44,763 nucleotides of DNA from Terriglobales bacterium. Lineage in GTDB: Bacteria > Acidobacteriota > Terriglobia > Terriglobales > Acidobacteriaceae. Under the pieces are notes generated by a model. It was not told where the DNA came from and did no database searches. It saw only the letters and a list, made by a program, of their open reading frames with translations. The stretch covers positions 1-44,763 of the forward strand of contig JAICSO010000031.1 of NCBI GenBank assembly GCA_025936825.1, read 5' to 3'. The stretch's first letter is position 1, and every line of letters starts with the position of its first letter. Shown here in pieces: positions 1,855 to 27,530 of the stretch. Made by a program: the position numbers and the translations under genes.

Positions 1855-3558
1855 CTACTTGGCCGTGGCGGCCATCGGCTTGATGCGCTCAAACACGTCC
1901 TCAGCCCGGCGCAGCGCCTCTTCCACGTTCGCACAGATATTCTCCGTGCCGACCACTTCCTCAAACTCGGCCTGGTGGATTAGTTGCGCCGGCTGCTCGC
2001 GGGCGCCGCAAAGGATGAGCGTGCGCTTCGACGCGTGCAATTGTTTCGCCACCTCTTCCAGGGCGTAGAGACCGGTCGCATCGAGGGCCGTCATATTCCG
2101 CAGCCGAATGATCACTACTGGCGGCAGCTTGTGAACGTTTTCCGTCACTGTGGCAATCTTGTCGGTGGCTCCGAATAGAAAAGGTCCATGGATGCGGAAA
2201 ATCGTCGCGTAGTAAGGGATGTCCTTGTCCTGCAGGATGTGCACGCGCCCGTCTTCAATGTAATCGTCGGTGACTTGCGAAACGGTGGTAGTATTCGCTA
2301 CCCGAGTAATGAACAGGAGCGCCGCCAGGATCATTCCTGCTTCGACGGCGACCGTGAGGTCCGCGAAAACTGTTAACAAAACAGTTACGAGCCAGACGCT
2401 GATGTCGGTTTTCGTCAGTTTGAGCAACTGCGGAATCTCACGCCACTCGCCCATGTTGTAGGCGACGATCATCAGGATGCCCGCGAGTGCCGCCATCGGG
2501 ATGAAACTGGCGTATTTGGCCGCAAACAGCAGGACGCACAGCAATGTCACGGCGTGGATCATCCCCGCGATCGGAGATTGCGCCCCCGAGCGGATATTCG
2601 TCGCCGTCCTCGCAATGGCGCCGGTGGCCGGCAAGCCGCCAAACATTGGAGAAAATATGTTGGCGATGCCTTGTCCCATGAGCTCGACATTGGGATTGTG
2701 GTGATCGTTGCTCATGCGGTCCGAGACCACTGCCGACATAAGCGATTCGATTGCCCCGAGCATAGCAACCGTGAAGGCAGGGCCAAGAAGCCCGTGCACC
2801 AGTCCCGCGTGCCAGCGCGGGATGACCATGTGAGGCAAGCCGCTGGGAATGCCGCCGAATCTGGAGCCAATTGTTTCGACCGGCAGCTTCAACAAGTATG
2901 CCGCGATGGTGACTCCCAGCATGGCGACAATCGGTCCTGGAATGCGGCTGGAGACCGCGCGGCAGATCAGCATGATCGCAACCGTGCAAGCCGCGAGCAG
3001 TGTGGCGCGCCAGGACCACGTCGGTGCAGAAGCTGCCAGCGATTTCATGCGAAGCCAGAATTCACCGGGAACCTTGGCAAGCGTGAGTCCGAAGAAATCT
3101 TTGATCTGCGTGCTGGCAATCAGCACCGCGATCCCATTGGTGAAGCCGATCACGACCGGACGCGGGATGAACTTTACCGCCGAGCCCATTCCGGTTGCGC
3201 CCAGAATAAGGAGCAGCACTCCGGCCATGACCGTGCACATGAACAGGCCGTCTACACCGTGAACGGCAACAATTCCCGCAACAACCACGACGAATGCGCC
3301 AGTCGGACCGCCGATCTGGGTTTTGGAGCCGCCAAATGCCGAGATCAGGAATCCCGTGACAATCGCGCAATAAATGCCAGCCTGCGGAGTCAGACCCGAG
3401 GCGATGCTGAAGGCCATGGCGAGCGGAAGCGCCACCAGGCCAACCGTGATTCCAGCGATCACGTCTTTGATGAACTTGTTGAGGTTGTAATCGCGCAGGC
3501 AGAGCACAGATTTGGGCAGCCAGCGATCATCAACAAAAGGCACAACGCGAGAAGACAT
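1855..3558 (-). CDS. SulP family inorganic anion transporter with STAS domain
   Basis: 567 aa from the ATG at 3558. A longer reading from a GTG at 3612 adds 18 unremarkable residues, and neither start has a clear ribosome site. The N-terminal two thirds are many hydrophobic helices with SulP motifs: GLVALPLAMAFSIASG, the GGSKTQIGGPTGAF segment, and GLPATGAIARTATN. Residues about 440-550 form a cytoplasmic STAS domain (FRIHGPFLFGA, then ALDATGLYAL). In STAS proteins the D-S-G/A position can be phosphorylated; here a Thr stands there (DATG). The family moves sulfate, bicarbonate or other anions across the inner membrane; the substrate cannot be read from sequence. No carbonic anhydrase or sulfate-activation gene is adjacent, so bicarbonate and sulfate remain equally open. 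Confidence 0.93.
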   Translation of the reverse strand: MSSRVVPFVDDRWLPKSVLCLRDYNLNKFIKDVIAGITVGLVALPLAMAFSIASGLTPQAGIYCAIVTGFLISAFGGSKTQIGGPTGAFVVVVAGIVAVHGVDGLFMCTVMAGVLLLILGATGMGSAVKFIPRPVVIGFTNGIAVLIASTQIKDFFGLTLAKVPGEFWLRMKSLAASAPTWSWRATLLAACTVAIMLICRAVSSRIPGPIVAMLGVTIAAYLLKLPVETIGSRFGGIPSGLPHMVIPRWHAGLVHGLLGPAFTVAMLGAIESLMSAVVSDRMSNDHHNPNVELMGQGIANIFSPMFGGLPATGAIARTATNIRSGAQSPIAGMIHAVTLLCVLLFAAKYASFIPMAALAGILMIVAYNMGEWREIPQLLKLTKTDISVWLVTVLLTVFADLTVAVEAGMILAALLFITRVANTTTVSQVTDDYIEDGRVHILQDKDIPYYATIFRIHGPFLFGATDKIATVTENVHKLPPVVIIRLRNMTALDATGLYALEEVAKQLHASKRTLILCGAREQPAQLIHQAEFEEVVGTENICANVEEALRRAEDVFERIKPMAATAK

Positions 3559-3605
3559 ACGTTGCTCGCAATTATGACAGATGCTTCCCGCCGGTGCGGC
3601 CGTAT

Positions 3606-3633
3606 TTGGCACGAACGTAACTGAATCTATACT
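3606..3633 (+). promoter_or_regulatory. Predicted sigma-70 promoter of the ABC ATPase gene
   Basis: TTGGCA at 3606-3611, a 16-bp spacer, then TATACT at 3628-3633. Transcription would begin near 3640, leaving a leader of about 70 nt before the ATG at 3710. The site overlaps the longer GTG reading of the divergent SulP gene, which is a further reason to prefer the shorter SulP start. The call rests on consensus match only. Confidence 0.55.
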
Positions 3634-3709
3634 TTGCGCTCTTGCCCCAGGGGATAATTTCAGCGCTCTCCAGCGCCATCACTGCCTTGTTGTAAGATCA
3701 GTAGTTTGT

Positions 3710-4417
3710 ATGCCACCGATCATCGAAGCCGTCGATCTGCGCAAGACGTATCACATCGGCAAAATCGACGTGAATGCACTGTGCGGCGTCTCGTTCACCG
3801 TGGAACGAGGCGAATTCGTCAGCATCGTCGGCCCGTCGGGCAGCGGAAAGTCGACGCTATTCTATTTGCTCGGCGGACTCACCCGCGCCGATGGCGGCCG
3901 AGTTGTTATTGACGGTGTGGACTTCGCAACGCTGTCAGACGCGGAGCGCACTCGTATGCGCAAATCCAAGATCGGATTCGTGTTTCAGAAATTCAACCTA
4001 CTTCCGACCCTCGACGCGCGCTCTAACATCGATGTTGCCATCGACATAGCAGGGGAGAATGGCGACCGTGATCCGGCCTACCTTGCAAAGATCATCGATC
4101 TCCTAGGTTTGACGAAGCGCATGAATCATCGTCCAGCCGAACTCTCCGGCGGCGAGCAGCAGCGCGTTGCACTGGCACGCGCGCTGGTAAATCGTCCAGC
4201 GATCGTGCTGGCGGACGAACCTACCGGCAATCTCGACTCCAAGAATTCCGAAATTGTGCTCGGCATGCTCCGCCATTCAAATAAAGAGCTGGGCCAGACC
4301 GTGCTAATGATCACGCACAATCCCGAAGCGGCAGGCTACGGCGACCGCATCATTCATATGCGTGATGGCCAGATCGTGCAGGCTGAGCAGGACCCGCAGT
4401 GGCGCGCTGGCCACTAA
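3710..4417 (+). CDS. ABC transporter ATP-binding protein, LolD/MacB type
   Basis: 235 aa from the ATG at 3710; an in-frame extension upstream runs through the promoter and is not protein-like. All nucleotide-binding motifs are present: Walker A GPSGSGKST at 41-49, Q-loop Gln93, signature LSGGEQ at 145-150, Walker B IVLADE at 165-170, and the H-loop MITHN. The pattern PTGNLDS after Walker B and the overall length place it with LolD/MacB/FtsE-like ATPases, which power lipoprotein release, macrolide/peptide efflux or envelope mechanotransmission. No permease gene is adjacent: SulP is divergent and the next gene is on the other strand. Its membrane partner must be encoded elsewhere, so the exact role is open. 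Confidence 0.93.
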   Translation: MPPIIEAVDLRKTYHIGKIDVNALCGVSFTVERGEFVSIVGPSGSGKSTLFYLLGGLTRADGGRVVIDGVDFATLSDAERTRMRKSKIGFVFQKFNLLPTLDARSNIDVAIDIAGENGDRDPAYLAKIIDLLGLTKRMNHRPAELSGGEQQRVALARALVNRPAIVLADEPTGNLDSKNSEIVLGMLRHSNKELGQTVLMITHNPEAAGYGDRIIHMRDGQIVQAEQDPQWRAGH

Positions 4418-4442
4418 TATCCCTTCTGATTGCCTATTCCAA

Positions 4443-5978
4443 TTATGGTTTGGGATGTTTCACAAAGAACTTGTAATAGACGTCCAACGGGCTATATCCA
4501 GAAGCACTAGCCGGCCCCTTGCCGGTGTCCAGGTAGCGGTTACACGGCTTCGTCCAGTCACAGGTGGAGTTGCGGAGATCAAGCGCGATTTTGGAATGCG
4601 TTGAAGGGTTATTGCATCCAAGAGTGTCATTTCCGTTCCAATCGAATGAGCACCATGGTGTTCCGGTTCCATTGCCCTCAAAGCGGTAGACGTATATCTC
4701 GGTCCGGAGCCGTCCGCCACTGCTCTTTAAAACCATCAGGCCCGTAGGAAGCCCATTCCCTGATCTGTCGAATGTCCCCGTGCAAAAGGTTTTGCCGGTA
4801 TGCTTTGGTAGGAAAATGTGAGTGGTCGTAACGTCTACGTGATCATAGTAGCGAATGCTGTCATCGACGGTCAGTCGGTGATACCAACCGCTGGTGCTCG
4901 GAAAATTATCACCGCAGATGTTCGCGTAGTTCTGTTTGCCTAACGTGTAGGCACCGGGGGTCATCACCACCGATAGAGGCTGCTTTGGATACGGCAGAGT
5001 CTTGCCGTATTCAGGGGCCTTCGGGCGACGGACCGTGAAGTTCGCATCCATGTTGTTGAAGCTGGACTCATTGTTGAGTGCGATAGCCGCGACGAGGTCC
5101 GCATTTGCTGCGGACGCTTGGATCGTCATTGCAGTCATGTACCCGTCGGCAATCCAGTCGCTCGTCATGTAAACCTTCTTGGGGTCAAGGTGAAGATCAC
5201 GGACAGTGAGCAGAACCAATTGCCGGATGAAGTCTACGTCGTTGGGCGTAATGCGATTGACCCAGGTGAACCGATTGCGACCGAGCCAGTTCCAGCGTTC
5301 GTCGCTACGATTGTCACGCCACGCAGCCTCCGGGCAGAGCAGCACCGGCGCAGGACTGGGAACGGTGTCGAGATACGACGCCCATCCAGCAACTTCGTTC
5401 GTTGGCGGGCCACAAGCATTTCCGTTGGTGGCATTCAGGCCGTGCCCCGCGCCGCCGATGTTCACGATCAAGGCGCTGCGTCCGGCAACGTAGTTGGTAG
5501 GAATGTGAACCTCCCAGCGACGATCGGCTGTGCCCACAATTTCCTGGTGTGACATACGGCAGTCATTCCTCTGCCCGGGGCCTCTCTTTCTGTAACCGGT
5601 GGCGCAATCTCCTGTTGCTCTAGGGATCGTGCCTCGCACAGTGATGGTCGCCGTCTGCGCCTGAGATCCGTTCACTGCTCGAATCACCGCCGTCCCTGGA
5701 TTGTTTGGAGCCGTGTATACGCCGCTCCTGGTCATCGTGCCAACACCGGAGACCAAACTCCAGGAGCAGGCGCTCGATGTCCCCAATTCGCAGGAGAATG
5801 GAACGACTGCAGTTTGCTCAACAGTCGCAGAGGACGGATAAACTGTCAGCTTGCCAGAACTGCGGGAGGCGGCATTTTGGGCTGGGGCATTCCGTGTTTT
5901 CGTGTTCTGCCCGATCGCGGTGTGTGAGGTCGAAAGAACCGCAAGCACAAAAATGGAAAATTGCAGTCTCACGTGCAT
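4443..5978 (-). CDS. Secreted Ig-like plus esterase/PHB-depolymerase-fold protein, nucleophile apparently lost
   Basis: 511 aa. Residues 1-23 are a signal peptide (cleavage near AIGQ). Residues about 44-115 form a bacterial Ig-like domain (VEQTAVVPFSC, GVYTAPNNPGTAVI). The rest resembles the alpha/beta-hydrolase fold of secreted feruloyl esterases and poly-hydroxybutyrate depolymerases: a Gly-rich oxyanion-type segment (NIGGAGHG, 173-180) and the characteristic DVDFIRQLV...LDPKKVYM stretch before the nucleophile elbow. At the elbow the family has G-x-S-x-G (commonly TGxSNGG); here residues 272-279 read TSDWIADG, with no serine in the expected place. Either the protein is a non-catalytic binder or the mechanism has changed. 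Several Cys residues suit a secreted disulfide-bonded protein. It is convergent with the ATPase gene and separated from it by about 25 bp. Confidence 0.65.
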   Translation of the reverse strand: MHVRLQFSIFVLAVLSTSHTAIGQNTKTRNAPAQNAASRSSGKLTVYPSSATVEQTAVVPFSCELGTSSACSWSLVSGVGTMTRSGVYTAPNNPGTAVIRAVNGSQAQTATITVRGTIPRATGDCATGYRKRGPGQRNDCRMSHQEIVGTADRRWEVHIPTNYVAGRSALIVNIGGAGHGLNATNGNACGPPTNEVAGWASYLDTVPSPAPVLLCPEAAWRDNRSDERWNWLGRNRFTWVNRITPNDVDFIRQLVLLTVRDLHLDPKKVYMTSDWIADGYMTAMTIQASAANADLVAAIALNNESSFNNMDANFTVRRPKAPEYGKTLPYPKQPLSVVMTPGAYTLGKQNYANICGDNFPSTSGWYHRLTVDDSIRYYDHVDVTTTHIFLPKHTGKTFCTGTFDRSGNGLPTGLMVLKSSGGRLRTEIYVYRFEGNGTGTPWCSFDWNGNDTLGCNNPSTHSKIALDLRNSTCDWTKPCNRYLDTGKGPASASGYSPLDVYYKFFVKHPKP

Positions 5979-6049: not shown

Positions 6050-6124
<75 letters not shown>

Positions 6125-6231: not shown

Positions 6232-6310
<79 letters not shown>

Positions 6311-15441: not shown

Positions 15442-15458
15442 AAACCTCTCACCGTCTT

Positions 15459-15569
15459 CTCATGTCCCCCGCTATTCGGGCGGGACTTGGCACCAGGCGA
15501 TCAGGCTGGTTCCTGATCCGGTTGCCGTGGCTTCCTCGGGCCCGTAACCCTCAGCCACTCTGCATGAGT
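15459..15569 (-). promoter_or_regulatory. SAM-I (S-box) riboswitch aptamer
   Basis: Read on the minus strand, P1 pairs ACTCATG (15569-15563) with CATGAG (15464-15459). Between them are the S-box landmarks in order: GCAGAGTGGCTGAGGG, GGCCCGAGGAAGCCAC, GGCAACC, a P3 hairpin (GGATCAGG/CCTGATC), GGTGCCAAGTCC, and a P4 hairpin closing before the P1 3' strand. The only departure I see is a slightly longer AGGG-to-GGCCC junction. The first gene downstream is the cysteine desulfurase. Confidence 0.93.
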
Positions 15570-15602
15570 ACGGCTATTCAGGCCTTGCAGCCTGAAGTTA
15601 CA

Positions 15603-24685: not shown

Positions 24686-24760
24686 GGGAGGGCACGGCCT
24701 ACGGCCGTGCCGTACGTGGACCAAATAGAATGTTCGGCACGGCTGTAAGCCGTGCCCTCC
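24686..24760. repeat. Paired REP-like hairpins in inverted arrangement
   Basis: Hairpin 1: GGCACGGCC (24691-24699) with GGCCGTGCC (24703-24711). Hairpin 2: GGCACGGCT (24736-24744) with AGCCGTGCC (24748-24756). The outer flanks GGGAGGGCACGG and CCGTGCCCTCCC are also complementary, so the whole 75 bp is an inverted pair like a BIME. It ends 16 bp before the DedA start codon and can mask its ribosome-binding region. Confidence 0.9.
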
Positions 24761-24775
24761 CGAATTCCAGAGCTC

Positions 24776-25457: not shown

Positions 25458-26942
25458 ATGTCACAGCGGCTCCGGAACGAAACCATACGCCCTCTGCGCT
25501 GGCGGAATGTATATCGCGAAGCCGAACTCTACAAGGCCGCTGTTCGGGTGTACACCAAGCCGCTCTTCCTCTGGCGTAAAGCCCTCAATGTTTCTACCGA
25601 TGGCAAAACGCTGTACGATCTGGCTGCCCGCGGCCTGAATGGCCTGGCCACGATTCACGATCAGCTACGGACGGAGCGATTTATCTTTCGCCCTTGTGTT
25701 GGCCTCAAGTACAACTTTAACGGCAAGCGACGGACTCTCTACATTCCTCCTTGGGAGGAGCGGATCGTCGATCTGCTGATTTATAGGCTGCTCAGCCGGA
25801 AACTGCACTACTGGTTCTCGGCTTCGTCGTATGCATACCGCGATCACACCTATGGACTGGATCGATGCCAGTCGCGAATCGCCGCGGTGCTGCGTTCGGC
25901 GAAGTTTCCCATGTACGTAGTGACGCGGGATATTTCGGATTATTTTGCGTCAATAAATCACGAAATTCTGTTGCGGCAACTCGAGAAGCTGGTTGCGCCG
26001 GAGGATTATTTGTTCCAATTGATTTCCGAGCGCATTCGTTTTGCTTATCAGGACGAGACTGGATCCCATCGTGCCACGATAGGCATCCCTTTCGGATGCG
26101 CCAGCGCTTGCGTGTTCGCAAACGTTCATTTGACCGAATTGGATCGAGAGATCGAGAGCATTCCTGCCGTCCACTACTTCCGGTATGCCGATGACATTCT
26201 GGTGTTATCGGAGGACTGCAGCGCGGCGCTGCTCGGAAAACAAAAGTTACAAGACGGCCTGAGCAAACTTCGCCTCACGACTAAGGCGAGTCACGAGTCA
26301 GATTTCGTCCTGACGACACTGCAGGTGCCACGCGATTCAACGTTCCAGCAAGCGATCTCATTCCGTCATCTCGGTTTGCAGTTTGAGCACGGCGGCTCCG
26401 TGTCGCTCTCCCGCGACAAGCAGCGAAAGATTCAGAACCTGTTTCGTTTCGCTTTTCGTCGGGCTCGGCGCCGTTGGCAAAAGATTGCCGATCCGCACGA
26501 GCGGGCGCGCACGTTGATCGCGATTGCCTGCCAGACAATCGACAAGGGCGTCCGGAATGTCGCGATCCTGGATTATTACCTAAAGCACGTCACCGATACT
26601 TCGCGTTTGCGGCTGCTGGACCGCTGGCTTGCGGAGGAGATTCTCAGCCTGGTGTTCGGTGGGCACAAAAAAGGGAACTTCGCGAAGATTAGTTACGAGC
26701 AATTGCGTGGGTACGGCTTGCCGTCTTTAGTTCACCGGCAGCGCCTGATTCGGCACGGAAAGATTGATAGTCCATTTTTTATTTGGCAGCAGCAGAAAGC
26801 AGACAGAGCGTTCAAGGGGACGGTTGCCAGTCGGAGTCGTGCCGCAAGCACGGTTACCGATTTCTCTCCGTGCCCAGAAGCAGCGGCCCCTGAAAAGCCC
26901 GTGAGAGAGGGCGGCCGCCTGTACATGGGTGTGATGGAATAA
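25458..26942 (+). CDS. Stand-alone reverse transcriptase of unassigned group
   Basis: 494 aa. The polymerase motifs are intact: fingers RTLYIPPWEERIVD (92-105) and SSYAYRDHTYGLDRCQ (123-138), motif A with Asp158 in RDISDYFASINH, motif B GIPFGCASACVFAN (209-222), catalytic FRYADD at 241-246, and the primer-grip HLGLQF (304-309). Motif B differs from the PQGxxxSP of group II introns and from the GNxTSQ of diversity-generating RTs. No maturase-X, HNH or protease domain is visible, and no intron or template/variable repeat pair was found. The C-terminal helical part has GHKKGNFAKISYEQLRGYGLPSLVHRQRLIRHG. The recognisable body ends near residue 449, exactly where a 22-bp inverted repeat begins; residues 450-494 look low-complexity. 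ATG at 25458 has no obvious ribosome site. It may belong to the unknown-group/defence RTs or to group-II-like domesticated RTs. Confidence 0.9.
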   Translation: MSQRLRNETIRPLRWRNVYREAELYKAAVRVYTKPLFLWRKALNVSTDGKTLYDLAARGLNGLATIHDQLRTERFIFRPCVGLKYNFNGKRRTLYIPPWEERIVDLLIYRLLSRKLHYWFSASSYAYRDHTYGLDRCQSRIAAVLRSAKFPMYVVTRDISDYFASINHEILLRQLEKLVAPEDYLFQLISERIRFAYQDETGSHRATIGIPFGCASACVFANVHLTELDREIESIPAVHYFRYADDILVLSEDCSAALLGKQKLQDGLSKLRLTTKASHESDFVLTTLQVPRDSTFQQAISFRHLGLQFEHGGSVSLSRDKQRKIQNLFRFAFRRARRRWQKIADPHERARTLIAIACQTIDKGVRNVAILDYYLKHVTDTSRLRLLDRWLAEEILSLVFGGHKKGNFAKISYEQLRGYGLPSLVHRQRLIRHGKIDSPFFIWQQQKADRAFKGTVASRSRAASTVTDFSPCPEAAAPEKPVREGGRLYMGVME

Positions 26943-26994
26943 CTTGCCGCTAAAGCGGAAGTTCGTTTGCGAAACCGTCCCCTTGATCGCTCTG
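26804..26994. repeat. 191-bp element with 22-bp inverted ends across the RT stop codon
   Basis: The left arm 26804-26825 and right arm 26973-26994 are reverse complements at 21 of 22 positions (core TCAAGGGGACGGTT / AACCGTCCCCTTGA). Between them are 147 bp containing the last codons of the RT gene, its stop at 26940-26942, and a small hairpin CCGCTAAAGCGG at 26947-26958. The right arm ends 17 bases before the next gene. It could be an inserted MITE-like element or the stem of a structured RNA. I see no convincing target-site duplication. Confidence 0.9.
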
Positions 26995-27011
26995 AGTAAG
27001 CGGAAGCAACT

Positions 27012-27530
27012 ATGGGATTGCTGGATTTTTTGATGAGCTTGTTTGGCGGCGGGGGCACCATCGAGTGTCCCAACTGCGGCACGCCCGGCGCACGGAAGAC
27101 GGACGACGAAGTAGTTCACTGCAAGAATCCGCGCTGTCCGTATTTTGATGCCAGCCTGGGACGCGCTGGAACGCTGCGGCAAGCTGGAACCACCGTCCCA
27201 ACCCGTGGAGATTTTCGCCCGAGGAATCCAGTCTCGATCCGCTACGTCAACTTCGCCGGACAGAGCAGGGAGTTTTCCGCTGAACGAGATTCATTAGTCC
27301 GCAAGAAGAACCACATTGTGGCGGAGGTCGCTCCTACGGGCAGGAAAATTGCTTTATCGCGCGACCGGATTCAGAACCTCAGCGAGGTTGAAGGACAGAT
27401 GCCGCAGCGGGTGGCACCGGGGCAAGATTGGCCCACTCCTCGCGAGCGCCAGATCCTTGGATATCACAAGAAGAACGGCACAACCTCGCCACGATACCAG
27501 CTGCTAAGGGCGAAGTATCCGAACTGGTGA
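27012..27530 (+). CDS. Zinc-ribbon protein of unknown function
   Basis: 172 aa, start ATG at 27012 with GGAAG 5 bases upstream. After a hydrophobic start (LLDFLMSLFGG) comes a four-Cys zinc ribbon: Cys19, Cys22 (CPNC) and Cys37, Cys42 (CKNPRC). The middle (VSIRYVNFAGQSREFSAERDSLVRKKNHIVAEVAPTGRKIALSRDRI in separate strands) suggests a small beta domain that could be WYL- or SH3-like. The C-terminus is PTPRERQILGYHKKNGT. No enzymatic motif is visible. It lies 69 bp after the reverse transcriptase on the same strand, so a functional link is possible but unproven. Confidence 0.75.
   Translation: MGLLDFLMSLFGGGGTIECPNCGTPGARKTDDEVVHCKNPRCPYFDASLGRAGTLRQAGTTVPTRGDFRPRNPVSIRYVNFAGQSREFSAERDSLVRKKNHIVAEVAPTGRKIALSRDRIQNLSEVEGQMPQRVAPGQDWPTPRERQILGYHKKNGTTSPRYQLLRAKYPNW

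Follow-up and report, generated by a model that had tools for sequence, protein, structure and literature searches.

We analysed a 44,763-nucleotide window of a Terriglobales bacterium (GenBank assembly GCA_025936825.1, contig JAICSO010000031.1, positions 1 to 44,763), a soil-type host. At 25458-26942 on the forward strand the window carries an intact open reading frame under purifying selection for a stand-alone reverse transcriptase (RT) of 494 residues. The last 139 nucleotides of this gene overlap a structured non-coding RNA (ncRNA) of ~190 nucleotides (26804-26994, forward strand), recognized from covariation, predicted folding and covariance models. Downstream lies a gene for a 172-residue zinc-ribbon/small β-barrel protein with four conserved cysteines (19, 22, 37 and 42; 27012-27530, forward strand). 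The RNA element, which the first-pass annotation had mentioned only in passing, proved real and became our main finding. The linkage of RT, RNA and zinc-ribbon gene is conserved between loci, the RNA structure is supported by covariation, and the fold of the RT was obtained as a structure model.

A pseudoknotted RNA at the 3′ end of the RT gene

The RNA is closed by a 21-base-pair stem, whose 5′ arm (26805-26825) pairs with a covarying 3′ arm (26973-26993). Within this stem lie, in order, the hairpin P1 of variable length (26829-26862), a UCUCUC strand (26863-26868), the arm P2 with hairpin P3 (26872-26930; helices 3, 4, 5 and 7), the hairpin P4 (26941-26963) and a CGUUU segment (26964-26968), conserved as unpaired in the alignments and a candidate template, all on the forward strand. 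P2 contains a 3x3 A-rich internal loop, next to which a G.U pair is invariant. The P3 loop, GAGAGA (26903-26908), pairs with the UCUCUC strand and forms a pseudoknot.

We scored a 62-pair structure on a MAFFT alignment of 13 sequences (A7), from which the structure had itself been derived, with the pseudoknot added by eye. Pairing was found in 96.2% of cells, and 32 of the 62 pairs had changed on both sides, against 14.9 in shuffled alignments (standard deviation 2.1; none of 500 as high). Sliding the partners by 1-3 columns reduced these values to 38-53% paired and 4-10 double-sided pairs. Double-sided changes occurred in 10 of the 21 pairs of the closing stem (helix 1, 97.0% of cells paired), 7 of the 8 pairs of P1 (helix 2) and 6 of the 10 pairs of P4 (helix 8). 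The pseudoknot (helix 3) was paired in 100% of cells across the 13 sequences; one of its pairs varied on both sides and two varied on one side. The 26795-27005 region has a predicted folding energy of -100.3 kcal/mol (z -6.6).

Sequence conservation runs on beyond the RT stop codon, the position of which varies between loci from nucleotide 33 to 138 of the ncRNA. In comparison with the orthologous locus L008, identity at third codon positions is 84% within the ncRNA (45 codons) and 44% in the remainder of the RT gene (449 codons), an elevation that is not explained by protein coding. Judged from these comparisons, 26804-26994 is a covarying, pseudoknotted RNA. No family in Rfam 15 matched it. 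An insertion of a miniature inverted-repeat or repetitive extragenic palindromic element was considered as the source of the inverted repeat and rejected; the element is single copy in the genome and is found together with the RT. A purely visual search for an A-B-A′ repeat at CGUUU gave inconsistent results.

The RT and its placement

The structure model of the RT comprises the RT domain (residues ~88-310), a helical thumb and C-terminal part to ~440, and a low-confidence tail (439-494), whose coding sequence overlaps the ncRNA. Pfam identified RVT_1 at residues 88-277 (E=1.4e-17) and nothing else at E 0.001, in agreement with the first-pass annotation, which had seen no maturase or endonuclease domain. 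The motifs it had listed were likewise found where described: D158 and FRYADD (241-246), together with GIPFGCASACVFAN (209-222). R157, D158, F212, G213 and F241-D246 are invariant across RT alignments of 10 to 14 relatives. This RT is the single RVT_1 match at E 0.001 in its own assembly (6.54 Mb, 99.67% complete). The proportions of non-synonymous (pN) and synonymous (pS) differences from L008 are 0.16 and 0.68. The gene, read from its sequence, is both intact and under selection. A promoter scan returned no sites and was uninformative.

We compared the RT to models of described RT families. The best PADLOC model was UG26 (124.7 bits, covering residues 88-427), where UG denotes an unknown group; the UG17, Drt9 and Drt3a models gave 88.3, 82.8 and 75.0 bits. 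True members score far higher: a genuine UG26 RT of the same phylum reached 482.9 bits on the UG26 model, on which a group II RT reached 103.2 bits, and a true Drt3a reached 363.5 bits on its own model. UG26 identity was therefore rejected on 124.7 against 482.9 bits, and membership in any UG family modelled in PADLOC is unconvincing. The genuine UG26 RT (L124, contig 26 of G095, 3614-4876, reverse strand) lacks this ncRNA, and in our tree it was placed elsewhere on a long branch. The tree, which included few UG references, joined our RT to Drt3a with support of 87/91 on a very long branch. A search for the Drt9 family in 99 phylum genomes gave no match, and its controls were also unmatched, hence it is uninformative. 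The predicted structure of the RT matches the folds of DRT9 and DRT2.

A retron would present a similar arrangement, with the ncRNA as an msr-msd turned into branched RNA-DNA and held by the closing stem as an a1/a2-like pairing. Long terminal inverted repeats in a cis RNA beside the RT, and the position of that RNA upstream of the RT in two phages described below, fit such a system. However, the RT scored 53.1 bits on NF038233, the only retron model within the E-value limit, against a cut-off of 235, and the retron-like rows form the deepest separate group in the tree. The NAxxH and VTG motifs are marks of retrons; both were seen in four retron-like rows of the tree and, by eye, neither is present in our RT. 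We consider a retron distinctly unlikely.

It is also highly improbable that the RT is a worn-down group II intron enzyme with a remnant of intron RNA. The profile score was far below the cut-off of 300, there is no maturase domain and no match to intron RNA in Rfam, the RT stands apart from the group II rows of the tree, and the pseudoknotted topology of the RNA is conserved over bacterial loci and phages. This is the placement that the first-pass annotation had named as refuting its view of a stand-alone RT outside the common bacterial classes, a view that our analysis supports. We would give as little weight to a diversity-generating retroelement (DGR), or another retrohoming element, in which the RNA is copied into a second site. 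The RT is separate from the DGR rows, and searches of its own genome and of the 137-kb record of phage contig L087 recovered only the locus and its own inverted arms, with no second copy or variable repeat, although records and metagenome-assembled genomes (MAGs) may be incomplete. By the sequence tests applied, the RT thus falls outside the retron, DGR and group II intron classes.

The RNA accompanies the RT in bacteria and phages

Sixteen distinct bacterial loci, the query included, carry this RT (L003/L040, L008-L016, L045/L064, L060, L061, L062 and L063), and aligned relatives are 51-75% identical to the query. The genomes G523, G571, G583, G589 and G574, which also gave matches, seem to be those from which L009, L010, L011, L015 and L016 come. 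The named relatives are Acidobacteria-type MAGs, with the exception of L014, labelled FCPU426. At E 1e-60 or better, the RT was found in 2 of 396 genomes of the phylum and 10 of 399 of the class, its own genome being counted in both. The orthologs in L062 (7890-9440) and L063 (7731-9398) contain in-frame inserts of ~20-35 residues near query residue 290.

With L014 and L016 left out of the counts (their contigs end inside the RT, which in L016 is also broken across two frames), the ncRNA is present in 14 of 14 bacterial loci that reach past the RT. It is complete in 13 and truncated where the contig stops in L011, which was excluded from the complete RNAs. The contigs of L009, L010, L011, L014, L016 and L060 stop inside or just past the module, and in G523, G571, G583 and G728 the zinc-ribbon gene, whole or in part, starts a separate contig; these breaks may reflect differences between strains or a difficulty in assembling the RNA region.

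We built one covariance model from the 13 bacterial sequences (R1) and a second from these plus the L087 copy (R2). In 299 class genomes, R1 matched eight, namely seven RT carriers and one weak outlier (G169; 43 nucleotides, 24.8 bits). The antisense strand of the ncRNA also matches R1 weakly, at about 20-42 bits, as a near-palindromic RNA would be expected to do, and an alignment polluted by such matches (A13) was left out.

Three IMG/VR contigs of 125-147 kb (L046, L047 and L087) carry relatives that span most of the RT, with 32-34% overall identity. The widest viral scan gave 426 stretches with some relative. There were 79 loci among the matches listed, of which the 76 besides these three match the RT only in part, with best segments 23-31% identical. 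When R1 was run on 36 other loci, phage L087 gave a match to the ncRNA immediately upstream of its RT (52.9 bits), L047 gave three weak ones (23.2, 21.2 and 15.2 bits) and L046 gave none; a stricter R1 run over the three whole phage records found the L087 copy alone. R2, for which L046 and L047 lay outside the training set, was run with filters off on shorter loci. In L046 it identified a single copy, which lies upstream of the RT (53.7 bits, E 5.4e-12), a test held out for the model and not blind, as the fold had been noticed by eye beforehand. In L047 it identified three copies (34.1, 30.8 and 29.7 bits) upstream of the RT on the opposite strand (2995-3926, reverse), two of them side by side and the third beside the start of the RT. 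The next match was 7.3 bits, setting aside the antisense of the L046 copy itself (8.0).

Under the R2 structure, 51 of 54 pairs form in the L087 copy, 49 of 52 in L046, and 34 of 41, 39 of 45 and 38 of 43 in the other three; shifting the partners by 1-3 columns leaves 49% or less paired. The five copies differ on both sides at 37 of 60 pairs in an alignment fitted to R2; the L087 antisense row was excluded from these counts. Aligned alone, the weakest L047 copy folds no better than shuffles (z -1.0). R1 gave no match at E 1 in the 76 other viral RT loci. Nor did R2 at 41 loci that encode RTs of other types, among them UG26, Drt3a, DGR, group II, Cas1-RT and retron-like enzymes. Several of the control loci extend just ~1.5 kb beyond the RT, and the Drt3a locus L208 may not reach its ncRNA. 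The sequence comparisons strongly support the link between RT and ncRNA.

The RNA might serve as a binding or regulatory element rather than a template, the RT acting on its own mRNA to set the level of RT or zinc-ribbon protein and using other substrates, for example in DNA repair. Such a repair role is reported for G2L4-type RTs. The phage copies precede the RT or, like the three in L047, lie on the strand opposite to it, an arrangement that misfits a cis-regulator of a downstream gene, and the patchy distribution of the RT in the class also speaks against this explanation, which we regard as unlikely.

The zinc-ribbon protein and the neighbourhood

The zinc-ribbon gene lies downstream of the RT and ncRNA in 12 of 13 loci and is itself constrained (pN 0.15, pS 0.70 against L008). 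Fold matches to its structure model were weak and mixed. WYL-domain proteins are among its closest known counterparts; other small barrels score alike (3bdu 5.1, Sla1 homology domain 4.9, Hfq up to 4.0), and Pfam gave no WYL match. We confirmed no relatives in viral contigs and found none in plasmids; G561 contains a 49-residue fragment without an RT, a weak outlier.

Of the context proposed in the first-pass annotation, the zinc-ribbon gene and the 26804-26994 element are conserved beside the orthologs, and the DedA gene is not. DedA was rejected as a partner of the module, since a search of the sequence flanking 10 other loci, over 1.5 to 6 kb and less at contig ends, found no homologue. Upstream of DedA, a 30-nucleotide inverted repeat with a 16-nucleotide spacer (24686-24761) is perhaps a REP-like element. 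Elsewhere in the window are a SAM riboswitch (15457-15570, reverse strand; Rfam RF00162, 69.1 bits), tRNA-Gly (gcc; 6050-6124, forward) and tRNA-Cys (gca; 6232-6306, forward).

Discussion

On balance, we lean towards the view that the RT, its cis ncRNA and the zinc-ribbon protein form a ribonucleoprotein in which the RT makes cDNA templated by the ncRNA, with a likely use against phages. The 3′ end of the RT transcript would supply the pseudoknotted RNA in cis, the RT would bind it, and in bacteria the zinc-ribbon/small-barrel protein would join them as a third partner. The template would most probably be a short stretch of unpaired ncRNA, which the RT copies into single-stranded cDNA in the manner of Class 2 defence-associated RTs (DRTs); the best candidate is CGUUU, just 3′ of P4. 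The zinc-ribbon protein may bind, sense or relay the cDNA. This mechanism is drawn from the anatomy of the locus and from the Class 2 DRTs, for which three papers report cis ncRNA templates (PMC12632851, PMC12489045, PMC13174585). By that analogy, ncRNA-templated synthesis is likely; an antiphage function we only infer. The neighbourhood weighs against defence: among ten neighbours from five loci there are genes for envelope functions, a kinase, an oxidoreductase and an ion channel, and no defence island was seen. The only hints are a zeta-toxin-like ATPase at L040 and, at L061, a Ser/Thr kinase with additional matches to the kinase models of PADLOC.

The Class 2 UG defence RTs (DRT9/UG28, DRT2/UG2, DRT10/UG17 and DRT3a/UG3) likewise combine an RT-only protein with a structured cis ncRNA of similar size, reported as 188 nucleotides for DRT9 (PMC12489045), and a downstream ncRNA is described for DRT3 (PMC13174585). 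Here, the RT scores far below their members on the PADLOC models, the RNA lies on the RT 3′ end, and the partner is a zinc-ribbon protein rather than SLATT or a second RT. UG26, the closest PADLOC model and a group whose genuine member has no such RNA, is reported from cold-seep viruses with its role given as unknown (PMC10504277). Retrons share the combination of RT and cis RNA closed by inverted repeats and differ in model score, tree position and, by eye, motifs. Thus, the locus looks like an undescribed RT plus cis-ncRNA system, outside the described families tested and working like DRT2, 3, 9 and 10. We found no published description in the literature searched, subscription papers being outside reach.

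A bolder version is possible, which we offer tentatively and with some doubt. Acidobacteria-type bacteria and large phages would share an independent RT-ncRNA branch, in which the ncRNA templates a short A-rich or repetitive cDNA that the zinc-ribbon/small-barrel protein reads as immune output. Phages would keep the RT-RNA core without the partner and use it either to fight competing phages or to counteract the bacterial system.

Work on RT-ncRNA systems has already revealed the synthesis of genes de novo, the production of homopolymers and a telomerase-like addition of repeats, and one report raises the possibility that further Class 2 UG systems depend on ncRNA templates (PMC12632851). The locus offers a specific case, open to testing, that lies outside the groups for which PADLOC has models; it comes with defined RNA boundaries, a pseudoknotted structure, a candidate site for the template, a partner protein and relatives carried by phages.
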